From: Merdibacter massiliensis
Lineage (GTDB): Bacteria; Bacillota_I; Bacilli_A; Erysipelotrichales; Erysipelotrichaceae
NCBI RefSeq assembly: GCF_900155395.1
Contig: NZ_LT699726.1
Location: 186,001 to 250,000 of the forward strand
Direction: 5' to 3'
Length of the DNA: 64,000 nucleotides
The translations under genes were made by a program, and so were the position numbers. The notes beneath the pieces are model-generated. The model saw only the letters and a list, made by a program, of their open reading frames with translations. It did no database searches and had not been told where the DNA came from. Shown piece by piece: positions 30,530 to 63,689 of this stretch; within the stretch, counting starts at the first letter, position 1; every line of letters begins with the position of its first letter.

Positions 30530-30792
30530 TTGACTTTACTTCTTTGAGATGTTATATAATAATGGAAAACGTTGAGAAGGAAAAGTAATCAGTTGATTTT
30601 GCATAGAGAATCAGCGGCAGGTGGAAGCTGATCAAAAACAATTGATGAAAAGCACCTTCAAGTGAAACAATGAATGAAGTAGTTGTTTACGGTAGTTCCG
30701 TTATCGCTTTGAGTGATTTCCTATTTGGAAATAAGAAGGGTGGCAACACGAGGCATTCGTCCCTTTTCGGGCGATGTCTCTTTTTTTTAAGG
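30530..30792 (+). promoter_or_regulatory. T-box leader (serine) of serS with promoter and terminator
   Basis: A promoter (TTGACT 30530, TATAAT region to 30560) is followed by a T-box RNA. Visible parts are the AGAGA bulge motif and GGTGG loop of stem I (30604-30625), an AGC triplet followed by ACC at 30651-30653 as the likely serine specifier, the T-box core AAGGGTGGCAACACG (30736-30750), and a terminator stem with eight T residues (30750-30788). Uncharged tRNA-Ser should stabilise the antiterminator and switch serS on. Confidence 0.9.
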
Positions 30793-32978: not shown

Positions 32979-32983
32979 TATAT

Positions 32984-33064
32984 AGCTACTGCAATGGTAT
33001 CTTACGAATCAGGTCAGGTCGGGAACGAAGCAGCCTTAAGAAAGCTCTATCATGTGCAGTAGCT
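32984..33064 (+). ncRNA. ffs: signal recognition particle RNA, short bacterial type
   Basis: An 81-nt hairpin RNA. The terminal helix AGCTACTGCA / TGCAGTAGCT closes a rod whose apical part carries the invariant Ffh-binding region (GGTCAGGTC, GGAA tetraloop, GAAGCAGCC). The tetraloop is closed by G-C here, where E. coli has C-G, a compensated swap that preserves pairing. A T-rich tract follows. The Alu domain is absent, so this is the small 4.5S-like form. Confidence 0.93.
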
Positions 33065-33078
33065 TTTATTTTTAATTA

Positions 33079-55847: not shown

Positions 55848-57104
55848 TTATAAGTTGATTTGAATAGAAGATATATCAATGCCGGATTGTTTCAAAAAGT
55901 TTAATGCTTCTTCAACTGTTAGTGATTGTTTGGTATCGGATCGTGGATTCATGAAGGATTCATAATCCGTTGGTTGAAATACTTCGCCTGTTAGGATCAT
56001 GTGATAGATACTGACCAACATCATGCGTGCGATCGCAATGATGGCTTTCTTGTGACCACGTCGTTTCTTGATATTGGAATACTTTCTTCCAAAATAAGAT
56101 GTCTTATCTTTGATGGTCGATAAAGCACATTGGACAAGCAGTGGTTTGAGATATTGTCCAGCTTTGGAGATACGAACTGACTTTTTCTTGCCGGCACTTT
56201 CGTTGTTGGCAGGAGAAAGTCCAGCCCAACTGACAAGTTGTTTGTCGGATTCAAACTGAGACATATCGATTCCTATTTCAGAGATGATCAGAATGGCCGA
56301 TAAGGAACTAATTCCTTTTATTTGTGTGATATGCTGGAAAGATTCGCGTAAAGGATAAGCCCGCTTGACCAATTCTGCTTCACATGAATTGATGAGTTGA
56401 TCCAAGTACTCCATATGATTCAATGATTTTTCCATCTTGAATCGTTGATCCGCTTCGATGTGATAGCCGTGAAGGGAGTCTAGTATCTTATCTTTGTTCT
56501 TACAATTTTTGTGAATGAGTTTTAAGATCTTGTCATCATCAATCACGTTTGGCTTCATGACTTCTTTCATGATATTGGAAGCTGTCTTGCCAAAAGGATC
56601 GGAGACAACAGAAGCTAATCCGATATTGGAAACGGTCATACAGTTCTGATAACGATTCCGTTCTGAAGAACGCATGCAGACCAGCTTGTATCGGTAACGG
56701 GCGATCTCACGCAGTTCTCGGATTTCTTTTGGAGGGATAAACGAGAATTTGATCAGATCATGTTTGAAGAGATCACAGATCCATTTGGAATCTTTCTTAT
56801 CAGTTTTTTTGCCTTTGATGGCTTTGACATACTTGGGATGAGTTAAATGGACATTGATCTCACCTTCAAGAATGTTGAAGATAGGGATCCAGTATTTACC
56901 GGTAGATTCCATGCAGACATCACAACAGTGATAAGAATTCAGCCAATCCTTTAAACGATATAGGTCCGAGTTTAAAGTGGAAAAAGATTGTTGGAAATAT
57001 TCTGTGATGTTCGACTGTCTATCGGTGATACCAATAGTAGCGACGACCAGATCTTTGTGAACATCCATGCCACAGCAGTTGAAACGAACGATTTTCATTG
57101 CCAT
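55848..57104 (-). CDS. IS110-family transposase
   Basis: A 418-aa recombinase. The N-terminal RuvC-like DEDD domain starts CGMDVHKDLVVATIG and includes CMESTGKYWIP and KKTDKKDSKWICDLF. The C-terminal Tnp domain has QIKGISSLSAILIISEIG and FESDKQLVSWAGLSPANNES, with the catalytic serine in this region. IS110 enzymes insert at short targets using an RNA guide, without classical terminal inverted repeats, so I cannot fix the element's outer ends. The frame is intact. Confidence 0.95.
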   Translation of the reverse strand: MAMKIVRFNCCGMDVHKDLVVATIGITDRQSNITEYFQQSFSTLNSDLYRLKDWLNSYHCCDVCMESTGKYWIPIFNILEGEINVHLTHPKYVKAIKGKKTDKKDSKWICDLFKHDLIKFSFIPPKEIRELREIARYRYKLVCMRSSERNRYQNCMTVSNIGLASVVSDPFGKTASNIMKEVMKPNVIDDDKILKLIHKNCKNKDKILDSLHGYHIEADQRFKMEKSLNHMEYLDQLINSCEAELVKRAYPLRESFQHITQIKGISSLSAILIISEIGIDMSQFESDKQLVSWAGLSPANNESAGKKKSVRISKAGQYLKPLLVQCALSTIKDKTSYFGRKYSNIKKRRGHKKAIIAIARMMLVSIYHMILTGEVFQPTDYESFMNPRSDTKQSLTVEEALNFLKQSGIDISSIQINL

Positions 57105-57113
57105 ATAAAAAAG

Positions 57114-57133
57114 CTCCTTTCATACAAAAGGAG
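57114..57133 (-). promoter_or_regulatory. hairpin sequestering the transposase ribosome binding site
   Basis: On the minus strand CTCCTTT-TGTATG-AAAGGAG is a perfect 7-bp stem, then CTTTTTT. The 3' arm AAAGGAG is the transposase Shine-Dalgarno sequence, 9 nt before the ATG at 57104. Confidence 0.8.
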
Positions 57134-57310
57134 AGGTGGCATTGACTGTCATCAAAGCGAATCGACAACAGTTGATTGAACAATCATAAGTGTCCAGGCT
57201 CAAAGTCCTACTTATTTGTGCTTGATATGATGACGGCAACTTATAAAAATACAGGATATTCAATTGAGTAGAATTCCTACTCACCTCCACGTGCTCTGTA
57301 GTATACCACC
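57134..57310 (-). ncRNA. candidate bridge-RNA region of the IS110 element
   Basis: IS110-group elements encode their guide RNA in the noncoding end upstream of the transposase. This 177-bp segment holds no gene and contains inverted repeats, including GAGTAG-AATTC-CTACTC (57266-57282) and a near-palindrome GTAGTATACCAC (57298-57309). Boundaries and guide loops are not resolved; this is a placement by analogy. Confidence 0.3.
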
Positions 57311-57336
57311 TCTCTTATAGGGTAACACGAAAATAA

Positions 57337-58737
<1,401 letters not shown>

Positions 58738-58750
58738 GGAGGAAAAAACA

Positions 58751-59368
58751 ATGGGTAAAGATTACAGTTTATGGGCAGAGGCGAAAACAAAGCATGGCTT
58801 AGCTGCAGATGAAGTCATTTCAGGTTTACAAAAAGCAATTCGCCGTTCAATGACAGAATTAGCTTGTCGCTATGCATATGAACTTTATACGACAAGTCCA
58901 GTATTGCTGGAAAAAGTATGGAGCCGATTGATGTCAATCTCGGTAGAGGATATTGGATTTGGAAATTTAGATGCAGCAAGACATATTTATGTATTAAATC
59001 AAATGCGCAAGGAATATGCTTATGATGATCCAGATCAGCCGATGTATTTTATTCATGCAATCCGTATATTGTGTTCAAGTCAAAAAGATCGTTCAAGTGA
59101 TTTCTTAAAGAACATCGTGATCAAGACAGCTGCCATGGGAGAAGTACCGGAGATAATCGATCTTGCTTTGGATAAACATACAAAACGAGGAAAAGCAATG
59201 GGCAGAGACTCGAAACACTTCTTTAACGAAGCTTGCAAAGTATTTCCGCAAGCAGAGGTAGATAATGATTATCGCGAGCGTTATGGAAAGATTCTAGAAG
59301 AATATGAAGAATATGATCCGGAAAAAGTTGAAGAAGATGCTTTTCAATATGCAGTAGGTCGTGTATAA
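58751..59368 (+). CDS. stand-alone RarA/MgsA C-terminal-domain-like protein
   Basis: A 205-aa helical protein. SGLQKAIRRSMTELACRYAY and WSRLMSISVEDIGFGNLDAA resemble the C-terminal oligomerisation domain of the replication-associated ATPase RarA (FQKSIR, RRLMxxAxEDIGLA). The AAA+ ATPase half is absent. LALDKHTKRGKAMGRDSKHF follows. AAGGAGG precedes the ATG. It is co-oriented with, and 13 nt after, the GH4 gene, an odd partner. The role is unknown; a regulatory or scaffold role is a guess. Confidence 0.65.
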   Translation: MGKDYSLWAEAKTKHGLAADEVISGLQKAIRRSMTELACRYAYELYTTSPVLLEKVWSRLMSISVEDIGFGNLDAARHIYVLNQMRKEYAYDDPDQPMYFIHAIRILCSSQKDRSSDFLKNIVIKTAAMGEVPEIIDLALDKHTKRGKAMGRDSKHFFNEACKVFPQAEVDNDYRERYGKILEEYEEYDPEKVEEDAFQYAVGRV

Positions 59369-59382
59369 TGGTGATGACGAAT

Positions 59383-59500
59383 ATCCTGTCATGTAAGGAT
59401 ATTGGTTGATGAAGTCCCATTTCATCAACCCTCGCTTTGCATAAAACATTAGAAACTATCGAAGTGATGTCCAAAAGAAACCCCCGGGGTTTCTTTTTAT
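59383..59500 (+). promoter_or_regulatory. structured leader of the MATE gene, guanidine-IV (mepA) riboswitch candidate
   Basis: Two consecutive hairpins, AATATCC-N10-GGATATT (59383-59406) and GGTTGATGAA-N7-TTCATCAACC (about 59404-59430, sharing bases), are followed by a single-stranded stretch CCTCGCTTTGC and a terminator (59473-59497). The layout, directly before a MATE exporter, suits a transcription-control switch such as the mepA (guanidine-IV) class. I cannot confirm the consensus from memory. Confidence 0.4.
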
Positions 59501-59519
59501 GTGTAAAGGAGGAAACAAT

Positions 59520-60851
59520 ATGGAAAATAAAATGGGAACAATGGAAATAAAAAAACTAATCATAACAATGTCATTGCCAATCATGATATCGATGCTGGTA
59601 CAAGCCTTGTATAATATCATCGACAGTATGTTTGTAGCAAGAGTGAGTGAAGATGCTTTGGCTGCAGTATCTTTATGTTATCCAATTCAAATGATCATGG
59701 TTGCAGTGGCATGCGGAACAGGAGTCGGGATCAATGCGATGCTGTCTCGCTATTTAGGAGAGAAAAAGCAAGAAAAAGCAAATCAAGTTGCAGCACACGG
59801 CTTATTTACTGCAATTTGTAACTGGATCGTATTTGCTCTGATTGGGATCTTCTTTTCAAGAAAATTTCTGCAGTTATTCTCAAATGATCCAGCAATCATA
59901 GATATGGGAATTTCCTATATGCGTGTTTGTACGATTCTTTCTTTTGGTGTTTTTGTGGAGATAACATATGAAAGGATCATGCAGTCAACAGGAAACACAA
60001 TTTATAACATGATCATTCAGGGAATAGGAGCCATTGTGAATATCATATTAGATCCCATTTTCATATTCGGCATGTTTCATTTACCGGCTATGGGTGTAAC
60101 AGGAGCTGCAATTGCAACAGTGATTGGCCAGATCATCGCAATGCTGATTGGTATTGTGATTACGCAGAAAAAAGTAAAAGAAGTACAAATTTCTATTCAT
60201 GATTTTCATATCGACAGTCATATTCTAAGAGTAATATATCGAATCGGGATCCCGGCTATCCTAATGCAGTCGATCATGAGCTTTATGACTGTTATAATGA
60301 ACATGATATTAGTTACCTTCTCGGAGACAGCAGTCTCGGTGTTTAGTATTTATTACAAGTTGCAGCAATTTGTATTCATGGCGGTCATTGGGATGAATAA
60401 TGCTTTGATTCCAATTGTATCTTATAATTACGGAGCTAGAAAAATGGAACGAATTCATCACTCCATTCGTTTTTCTATACTGGTATCGTGTATCATCATG
60501 GGGATTGGCACATGTTTATTTGAACTGTTTCCTGCACAGCTGCTGTTTTTATTTGATGCAAAAGAGAATATGTTAGCAATTGGGATACCAGCTTTGCGAA
60601 TTATCTCATTGTCATTTCTGTTTGCAGGTATTTCAATGGTAGCCTGTTCGGTATTTCAAGCATTGGGATCTCCAACGTATTCTTTGATTATTACATTATT
60701 GCGGCAAATGATATTATTGTTGCCTTTAGTATACTTCTTATCTTCAATGTTTGGATTGAATCAATGTTGGTGGGCGTTTTTGATTACAGAAATAGTATGT
60801 GCATGTATCGCATTTGTTCTATTGAAAAAAATAAAAAAACAGATCTTATAG
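59520..60851 (+). CDS. MATE-family multidrug exporter (MepA-like)
   Basis: A 443-aa inner-membrane antiporter with twelve hydrophobic helices arranged in two bundles. It starts MENKMGTMEIKKLIITMSLP, with GGAGG 7 nt before the ATG at 59520. AVACGTGVGINAMLSRYLGE and MNNALIPIVSYNYGARKMER are typical of the family. It exports drugs or small cations with Na+ or H+. It is preceded by the structured leader and its terminator. Confidence 0.93.
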   Translation: MENKMGTMEIKKLIITMSLPIMISMLVQALYNIIDSMFVARVSEDALAAVSLCYPIQMIMVAVACGTGVGINAMLSRYLGEKKQEKANQVAAHGLFTAICNWIVFALIGIFFSRKFLQLFSNDPAIIDMGISYMRVCTILSFGVFVEITYERIMQSTGNTIYNMIIQGIGAIVNIILDPIFIFGMFHLPAMGVTGAAIATVIGQIIAMLIGIVITQKKVKEVQISIHDFHIDSHILRVIYRIGIPAILMQSIMSFMTVIMNMILVTFSETAVSVFSIYYKLQQFVFMAVIGMNNALIPIVSYNYGARKMERIHHSIRFSILVSCIIMGIGTCLFELFPAQLLFLFDAKENMLAIGIPALRIISLSFLFAGISMVACSVFQALGSPTYSLIITLLRQMILLLPLVYFLSSMFGLNQCWWAFLITEIVCACIAFVLLKKIKKQIL

Positions 60852-62246: not shown

Positions 62247-63443
62247 TTATTCTCTTTCTAATAGCCGCTTGTAAGAAAAGTCAATTCCTATGGCACCTAA
62301 AGGTGCTGTGATCAATATTCCTAATACAGCAACAGATAATACAATTGGTCCACAGGATAATCCCATGGCTAATGGAACAGAACCAATCGCTGCTTGTACG
62401 GTTGCTTTCGGTAAATAGGCTATTGTACAGAAAAGACGTTCTTTTTTATTTAAAGGGGATCGTAAAAGACAAATCGAAACACCAATAGAGCGAACACACA
62501 AGGCAATACAAATCATAGCAATGGCAGCTAGACCAGCTTGCAATGTATAACGAATATCTACTGCTGCACCAACCAATACAAATAAGATCACTTCAGATGC
62601 AATCCACAATTTTCCAAACTTTTCAGATAGTCGTTTCGATACAAAAGAGGGACTTTTCTTATTCAGTACACATGCCATTGCAATTACCGCTAATAATCCA
62701 GATATAGAAACAGTTCCTTTTAACCAGGATTCAATTGCTATAAAGAAGAATGAGATACCTAAAATAATAATGATCTTTGTACTATTTCTTACATAGTGTT
62801 TGTGGTTGTAGGCAGATTCAAAAAATAAGCTTAAAAGATAACCAACAACAGCACCTAATGCAATACCCAGCAAGATAGATACGGGAATAGAGATGAAGTC
62901 TGTGATATGTACGCTTCCTCCTTGAGCCATGCTAGAAAAAGTGGAAAATAAGACGATGACAAAGATATCATCACAAGAGGCACCAGCCATGATCAACTGA
63001 GGAATACCTTTCTTAGTTCCATATTTCTTTTCCATTAAATAGACCATTCGAGGCACTACGACAGCAGGAGAAACAGCAGCTAAGACGGAACCCATAACTG
63101 CAGCTTCAATAACAGAAATATGCAATAGCATAGGTGCAAATAAGATATAACCTATTATTTCAAAAGAGGCAGGAAGAAAAGACATAAGGATAGCAGGACG
63201 GCCAACTTTTTTCAAATCTTCTAAGTTCAAAGATAAACCAGCTTTTAATAAAATAATGATCAATGCCATTTGCCGCAACTCGGAAGATATGGATAAGATA
63301 GATGGATCTAATAGATTGCATACATAGGGACCTAAAATAATGCCTGTAATAAGCATGCCAATGATCCGTGGTAATCGAAGGGCTTGTACGATGGACGCCA
63401 TTGCTAATCCAATGATGAAAATAAAGCCAAGTGATGTTAACAT
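62247..63443 (-). CDS. CPA-type sodium/proton (or anion-linked) antiporter
   Basis: A 398-aa protein with about eleven membrane segments. It starts MLTSLGFIFIIGLAMASIVQ; ATG 63443 has GGAGG 6 nt upstream. The family core includes IGMLITGIILGPYV, the unwound-helix region MAGASCDDIFVIVLF with the ion-binding acidic residues, and LLAVIAMACVLNKKSP. It is controlled by a fluoride riboswitch, so it probably helps fluoride tolerance, as other riboswitch-linked antiporters are thought to do. It is convergent with the CNNM gene. Confidence 0.9.
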   Translation of the reverse strand: MLTSLGFIFIIGLAMASIVQALRLPRIIGMLITGIILGPYVCNLLDPSILSISSELRQMALIIILLKAGLSLNLEDLKKVGRPAILMSFLPASFEIIGYILFAPMLLHISVIEAAVMGSVLAAVSPAVVVPRMVYLMEKKYGTKKGIPQLIMAGASCDDIFVIVLFSTFSSMAQGGSVHITDFISIPVSILLGIALGAVVGYLLSLFFESAYNHKHYVRNSTKIIIILGISFFFIAIESWLKGTVSISGLLAVIAMACVLNKKSPSFVSKRLSEKFGKLWIASEVILFVLVGAAVDIRYTLQAGLAAIAMICIALCVRSIGVSICLLRSPLNKKERLFCTIAYLPKATVQAAIGSVPLAMGLSCGPIVLSVAVLGILITAPLGAIGIDFSYKRLLERE

Positions 63444-63460
63444 GATATTCCTCCTAAAAT

Positions 63461-63546
63461 AAAAAAGCTGACAACCCGTGATAAAAATCACAGAAGTCAT
63501 CAGCATACATGCGGTTTAGGTTTCCCAAGGGAGAACTTCATTCCCG
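63461..63546 (-). promoter_or_regulatory. fluoride riboswitch (crcB motif) with terminator
   Basis: On the minus strand the aptamer begins GGGAATGAAGTTCTCCC (63545-63529), then AAACC and GC, then GCTGATGACTTCTGTG (about 63504-63489). This matches the fluoride class pattern, GGN-GATG-x-CC stem, AAACxGC, and GCTGATG; GAAGT can pair with ACTTC as the pseudoknot. The expression platform (GCTGAC / GTCAGC, 63467-63506) is a terminator with a T run. Confidence 0.87.
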
Positions 63547-63689
63547 AAAAGTATTTTACCGGATATTCTTTTTTTGTAAAGACCAATCAGCAGGATGCAG
63601 ACTAAAAATGCTTGCTTGAGAAACAGAAATAAGAGAATTATAATAAAAGTGATGTTAATGATAAAAATAGACATAGAAAGGGGAAACAT

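Follow-up and report, generated by a model that had tools for sequence, protein, structure and literature searches.

A candidate riboswitch-like leader with a hairpin of nearly invariant core precedes one clade of MATE exporter genes in Erysipelotrichales

In translational ON riboswitches with a helix directed against the Shine–Dalgarno (SD) sequence, a sensor hairpin and the SD-masking helix compete for one strand of the RNA. The guanidine-IV riboswitch (the mepA or GGAM-1 motif) is composed of two hairpins, the second of which is the terminator; a G, a U and a G in the terminator loop are essential (PMC7736828, PMC11611296). These letters form a G-U-N4-G pattern that corresponds to G66, U67 and G72 in L. 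lactis and to G71, U72 and G77 in C. botulinum (PMC7736828, PMC11611296), and conserved nucleotides are assigned to the P1 loop as well as to the loop of the terminator hairpin (PMC7736828, PMC9788692). Its close relative Gd4v is described as nearly identical, with an extra hairpin on the terminator (PMC9788692). Both occur upstream of MATE genes, and in both a terminator forms the end of the element (PMC7736828, PMC9788692).

The window examined in this study is a stretch of 64,000 nucleotides from Merdibacter massiliensis, in which 151 bp separate the stop codon of an upstream gene (59368) from the ATG of a MATE exporter gene (59520), matching the gap of 150 bp given in an earlier note on this DNA. 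That note described the gene as MepA-like and proposed that its leader may be a guanidine-IV riboswitch or, failing that, an undescribed switch. The assignment to the MATE family holds, with the protein scoring 225 bits against the generic matE profile of NCBIfam (cut-off 147), but the score of 145 bits against the MepA profile lies far below its cut-off of 850. The leader from 59369 to 59501 has a predicted folding energy of -43.9 kcal/mol compared with -25.2 kcal/mol (sd 3.2) for shuffled sequences (z -5.8; 0 of 200 shuffles as good), and hairpins P1 and P2 alone reach a z of -5.1 against shuffles. The parts of the locus are as follows.

59341..59369, plus strand: TTTTCA-17-TATAAT, a putative sigma-70 promoter for the MATE transcript, with 10 of 12 consensus letters, within the 3' end of the upstream gene
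59380..59403, plus strand: hairpin P0, the first, 8 bp, outside the conserved element (predicted fold)
59404..59430, plus strand: hairpin P1, 12 bp, loop CCC (covariation over 14 leaders)
59431..59443, plus strand: 5' strand of the alternative helix P4, CUC.CUUUGCAUA, common to the 5' strand of P2 (minimum-energy fold, partner 59500-59511)
59432..59467, plus strand: hairpin P2, the proposed sensor, with CNCUUUGCAUAAAACAUNAGAAACUAUCGAAGUG as its nearly invariant core (pairing in 14 of 14 leaders, core conserved)
59473..59497, plus strand: intrinsic terminator hairpin, 11 bp, loop CCG, U run at 59494-59498 (predicted fold; an equivalent picked in 14 of 14 leaders)
59500..59511, plus strand: 3' strand of P4, covering most of the SD (predicted folds, duplex energies)
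59505..59512, plus strand: SD sequence AAAGGAGG (read from the sequence)
59520..60851, plus strand: MATE-family exporter gene, the leader's own gene, 443 aa (Pfam MatE, E 6.4e-55; TIGR00797 above cut-off)

P0 and P1 correspond to the two tandem hairpins of the earlier note. Both are present, and the first is not conserved: when the leaders were compared by reading, P0 found no counterpart in the others, those of L004 and L005 from the same genus included. The terminator of the note is likewise present, as a hairpin running into UUUUU. It is absent from the output of a consensus terminator scanner (0 found), in our view because the U run takes part in the pairing of the stem. The stretch that had been taken for a conserved-looking linker, 'CTCGCTTTGC', does belong to the most conserved part of the leader; it is not a linker, however, as it is paired in a third hairpin, P2, whose 5' strand it forms. 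The element also extends beyond 59500, where the note had it end, and reaches the SD at 59512. If the promoter-like box at 59341-59369 is used, the transcript would begin with P0 and P1. The window contains two sites of this grade against 1.5 expected by chance, and TATAAT-like boxes were also seen by eye upstream of P1 in several relatives.

We searched 272 genomes of the window's family with the MATE protein and found a match at E 1e-100 in 101 of them; the loci of 30 were retrieved, and named contigs added 14 further MATE loci. P1, P2 and the terminator precede the same MATE gene in 14 distinct leaders (L044 and L104 are identical and were counted once), of which 13 belong to two families of a single order, with nine in the window's family and four in a sister family; the remaining one, L037, is on a contig that carries the label Oscillospiraceae. 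The MATE protein of L037, which is encoded on a metagenome contig together with the full leader, is nearest to that of L013 from the window's family, so that either the label is wrong, through a mislabelled bin, or the gene was transferred. A near relative, L010 (genome G200), stands outside the 14, its contig starting about 100 bases before the gene and inside the end of another element. The window itself carries an IS110-family transposase gene at 55848-57415 (Pfam), and the flank of this element recurs at the start of the G200 contig (L010/L039, 1-107; 107 bp, 90% identity), at the position expected for the MATE leader. In both the window and G200, the end that they have in common leads into the SD sequence GGAAATGGAGG, and the IS110 element may target SD sites.

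Homologous leaders, which the earlier note had proposed to collect for covariation, show covariation in P1: seven of its eight modelled pairs show double changes across the 14 leaders, with 89.8% of cells paired. The seven modelled pairs of P2 (59433-59439 with 59460-59466) form in all 14, three varying on one side and four never varying, and none of the seven shows double-sided covariation. The covariation score of the whole structure is 0.426 compared with 0.218 (sd 0.023) for shuffles and at most 0.142 when the structure is slid along an alignment that was fitted to it and thus favours it. The earlier note's reading of the gap as a structured leader of the exporter gene is supported, as is a role for it in cis regulation. 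We give almost no credence to the idea that the gap holds only the terminator of the upstream gene along with chance hairpins: the upstream stop codon does lie 105 bp before the terminator, but P1 covaries, a promoter-like box is found upstream of P1, and the element, unlike the sequence further upstream, which most leaders do not share, is conserved before the MATE gene. Ribosome-mediated attenuation, in which drug-stalled ribosomes on a short leader peptide would alter the RNA fold, is improbable. A possible frame, MKSHFINPRFA, runs from 59409 to 59444, and similar frames occur in two leaders of the same genus, but at least four of the 14 leaders (L012, L014, L103 and L106) have no ATG in P1 and the frames differ in others; with neither ATG nor frame conserved, we rejected the leader peptide.

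The core of P2 is almost invariant among the leaders. Within it, GAAAC (59452-59456) has no partner in either of the two states predicted for the window leader, and an almost invariant yet unpaired stretch of this kind would suit a putative binding site. A pairing of the core AGAAAC with the 3' arm of the terminator was considered and dropped, as it fits completely in few leaders.

To map the distribution of the leader, a covariance model, R1, was built from a first set of 11 leaders and scanned under stricter filters, with 13-19 candidates scored per genome, a setting in which weak members can escape. Ten of the 272 family genomes matched, nine at training leaders and one inside an ORF; as the nine true matches are all training sequences, the scan added no new member. 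Among 395 genomes of the class there were four matches, two of them training leaders and two inside ORFs. Matches L060 and L061, which fall inside ORFs, were counted as chance. Three leaders outside the R1 training set, L103, L105 and L106, score 57-72 bits. Twelve viral contigs reach at most 13.1 bits, in a range that overlaps the scores of the reduced leaders described below, and all of these matches lie inside open frames of at least 118 codons and were taken as chance.

Pattern searches gave a similar picture. A short core pattern, which was derived from the leaders, matches them by construction and is informative only for other places, occurs exactly in 11 of the 272 family genomes, each time at the MATE locus. 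With one mismatch it is found at 14 further places in the family, one of which is the leader of G002 itself; each of the remaining 13 falls within an open frame of at least 158 codons, and their number, at the level of a reversed-pattern control (14 genomes), led us to reject them. A longer pattern with up to three mismatches is present in 20 of 182 genomes of the order. The 10 genomes with zero or one mismatch all carry it at a MATE gene of this clade, four of them in the sister family (L103, L104, L105 and L106), and the 10 with three mismatches, one of which has the match at a reduced leader of a MATE gene (G083), compare with seven in a reversed control. All 43 genomes of the sister family yielded the same four leaders only, and 354 genomes of the phylum yielded matches only in the M. 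massiliensis genome, which has a single copy of the element, and in G197. Within the limits of these genome scans, no full leader was found outside the order except L037.

Like guanidine-IV, which precedes MATE or other exporter genes in Firmicutes, the element is an exporter leader with a P1 hairpin and a terminator. A pairing of the P1 loop with the terminator, as in guanidine-IV, may also occur. This pairing, with a GG or GGG in the terminator, is possible in all 14 leaders over 4-8 contiguous pairs; its covariation support is weak (permutation p 0.06 for 14 leaders and 0.04 for a reduced set of 10), and against shuffled targets the p values range from 0.01 to 0.54 per leader in a run in which three P1 loops were misassigned. 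The invariant nucleotides, in contrast, sit in P2, which is a hairpin of its own, lies after P1 and before the terminator and has no described place in guanidine-IV. G-U-N4-G is present in one of 14 terminator hairpins, and the terminator loops are short and variable (3-5 nt; CCG, CCGG, GTCGG, TTGG, CGG, TAAG, TTTT, AATG and ATG). Two further differences from guanidine-IV are the SD-masking helix predicted in many members and the occurrence, in the genomes searched, before a single MATE clade. Gd4v, likewise an orphan, is similarly terminator-based and sometimes placed before MATE genes, but its add-on to the terminator hairpin is not seen here, and loops of 3-5 nt in all 14 leaders leave no room for such a hairpin.

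Searches of Rfam 15 at the leaders returned no match (window at gathering, leader at E 10 and 14 homologous loci at E 1), and no match at gathering was found at the leaders of 20 other MATE loci. In the window at large, Rfam reports a fluoride riboswitch on the minus strand at 63484-63554 (RF01734, 44.7 bits), where a gene of the Na+/H+-exchanger family (62247-63506) begins, a T-box leader (30563-30767) and a bacterial small SRP RNA (32979-33072). The silence of Rfam is no test of guanidine-IV, as two leaders of SMR operons that are possible guanidine-IV members, L099 and L100, are also without an Rfam match, and the Rfam copy may lack the family. The leader of the SMR gene pair in L100 (1082-1146; z -6.9) has two hairpins, one with loop GCCG and the other long, terminator-like and with UAUAGGCCUUUGCA as its loop, and is possibly guanidine-related. 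A search of plasmids for SMR genes returned mainly enterobacterial records. An exporter turned on by guanidine or a related compound through guanidine-IV or Gd4v is a very unlikely explanation at this locus: the placement before MATE genes, the terminal terminator and the P1 loop–terminator pairing would all suit it, but the conserved letters lie in a hairpin undescribed for guanidine-IV, and the M. massiliensis genome has no SMR exporter gene at E 1e-15. Although it may work like guanidine-IV in part, the leader is no member of that class on the features tested. The fallback of the earlier note, an undescribed switch, is supported. Among the open-access papers listed in our literature searches, we found no description of the motif; the supplements of large RNA surveys may hold an unnamed entry.

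The resemblance to translational ON riboswitches lies in the strand competition, although no known Rfam 15 family was recognised. The 5' strand of P2 has two mutually exclusive predicted partners, the 3' strand of P2 or the SD region in P4, and forcing P2 in the window leader raises the predicted SD exposure from 0.04 to 0.92. Over the 14 full leaders, the mean gain in SD exposure on forcing P2 is 0.28 compared with 0.10 (sd 0.05) for shuffled tails, with none of 60 shuffle sets as high. Single leaders are more uneven: with 60 shuffles for each, p 0.02 is attained by only five of the 18, and the gain is at most 0.10 in six of the 14 full leaders (L005 0.00, L014 0.10, L015 0.02, L103 0.04, L104 -0.16 and L106 0.01), so that the coupling to the SD is not universal. 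The P4 duplex alone beats shuffles in eight of the first 11 leaders (p 0.012 or less) and is no better than shuffles in L005, L014 and L015 (p 0.28-0.67). P4 pairings within leaders give -12.5 kcal/mol compared with -11.5 kcal/mol for permuted ones (fraction 0.0019; 14 leaders, in a permutation that ignores relatedness).

Four further leaders, L016, L019, L024 and L027, precede MATE genes of 55-58% identity and, by reading, keep the core as CUUCG-loop-CGAAG near the SD without P1 and the terminator. These hairpin-only variants score low with R1 (11-21 bits). Their predicted SD exposure is 0.00-0.37 in the free fold and 0.42-0.97 with P2 forced, when all four are open, and the mean gain of 0.65 compares with 0.40 (sd 0.11) for shuffled tails (0 of 60 sets as high); taken one at a time, their anti-SD duplexes do not reach significance (p 0.06-0.38). 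The joint absence of P1 and the terminator in these variants fits a joint role and proves none.

In a tree of 34 MATE proteins, all 14 genes with the full leader fall in one supported group of 24 (100/98), which also contains the four hairpin-only genes, four with a third type of leader, L021 and L010. The basal forks of this group are unresolved, and the genes of both host families are intermixed in it. Leader type is clustered on the tree, such that leader and gene seem to move together. The third type, found before the sister-branch MATE genes L017, L018, L020 and L022, has another hairpin, which lies a short way upstream of the SD and has the loop AUCCCCUWUGAAWCU. This hairpin is followed in L017 and L018 by CAUAGGGG, which overlaps the SD and looks pseudoknot-like by reading; the one leader of this type that was folded has a z of -1.0, and none of the four has an Rfam match at gathering. 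As a single side branch of the MATE tree contains hairpin-only and third-type leaders intermingled, this leader may be either a type of its own or a derivative of the same RNA. On another MATE branch, the leaders of L023, L026 and L028, and the less alike L025, end by reading in a terminator-like AACCACUCU...AGAGUGGUU hairpin and have no Rfam match at gathering.

Comparison across the leaders thus shows that P1, P2 and the terminator are conserved together with a MATE clade and that the 5' strand of P2 has two exclusive predicted partners. The leaders combine a covarying conserved structure, a consistent position upstream of the gene and a predicted expression platform, whose SD part is weak or absent in six of 14. 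We lean toward the view that the MATE mRNA carries a cis-acting RNA switch as its 5' leader, which would be of the ON type, riboswitch-like and an orphan, with P2 as the sensor. The signal, its binding to P2 and the direction of control are inferred, the ON direction from the general logic of exporters. In the absence of the signal, most transcripts would end at the terminator, and in those that read through the SD would be hidden in P4. The signal, most likely a small molecule removed by the exporter, would bind the conserved P2 loop and stabilise P2, which would block P4, expose the SD and allow the exporter to be made, with the terminator acting as a second lock. More speculatively, P1 may add transcriptional control through pairing of its loop with the GGG in the 3' arm of the terminator.

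An RNA-binding protein that recognises the invariant P2 loop and sets either the balance of P2 and P4 or the terminator would make the leader a protein-responsive attenuator, which we judge unlikely while giving it real weight. Conservation centres on one hairpin whose loop is nearly invariant, a common form of protein site, and the element has one copy in its own genome, with all exact pattern matches in the family at one type of gene. A dedicated regulator is, however, often encoded nearby, and none was seen in the few ORF lists examined. Returning to the cis-acting switch with P2 as sensor, we place the leader as a new candidate of modest distribution within the riboswitch-like leaders. Only tentatively, and with the balance somewhat against it, do we suggest a new riboswitch class with a single hairpin of about 34 nt and loop AAAACAUNAGAAAC as aptamer, which would sense the exporter substrate and act through both termination (by a P1–terminator kiss) and SD masking, while a side branch of the same MATE clade would have a reduced form that acts on translation alone.

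The substrates of MATE exporters can seldom be deduced from sequence, and a substrate-sensing leader would reveal the substrate of this one. Such a leader would also be a small, testable sensor for a compound that these bacteria meet, and the presence of terminator-plus-SD and SD-only forms in a single clade of exporters would illustrate how a sensor can be retained when its expression platform is exchanged.
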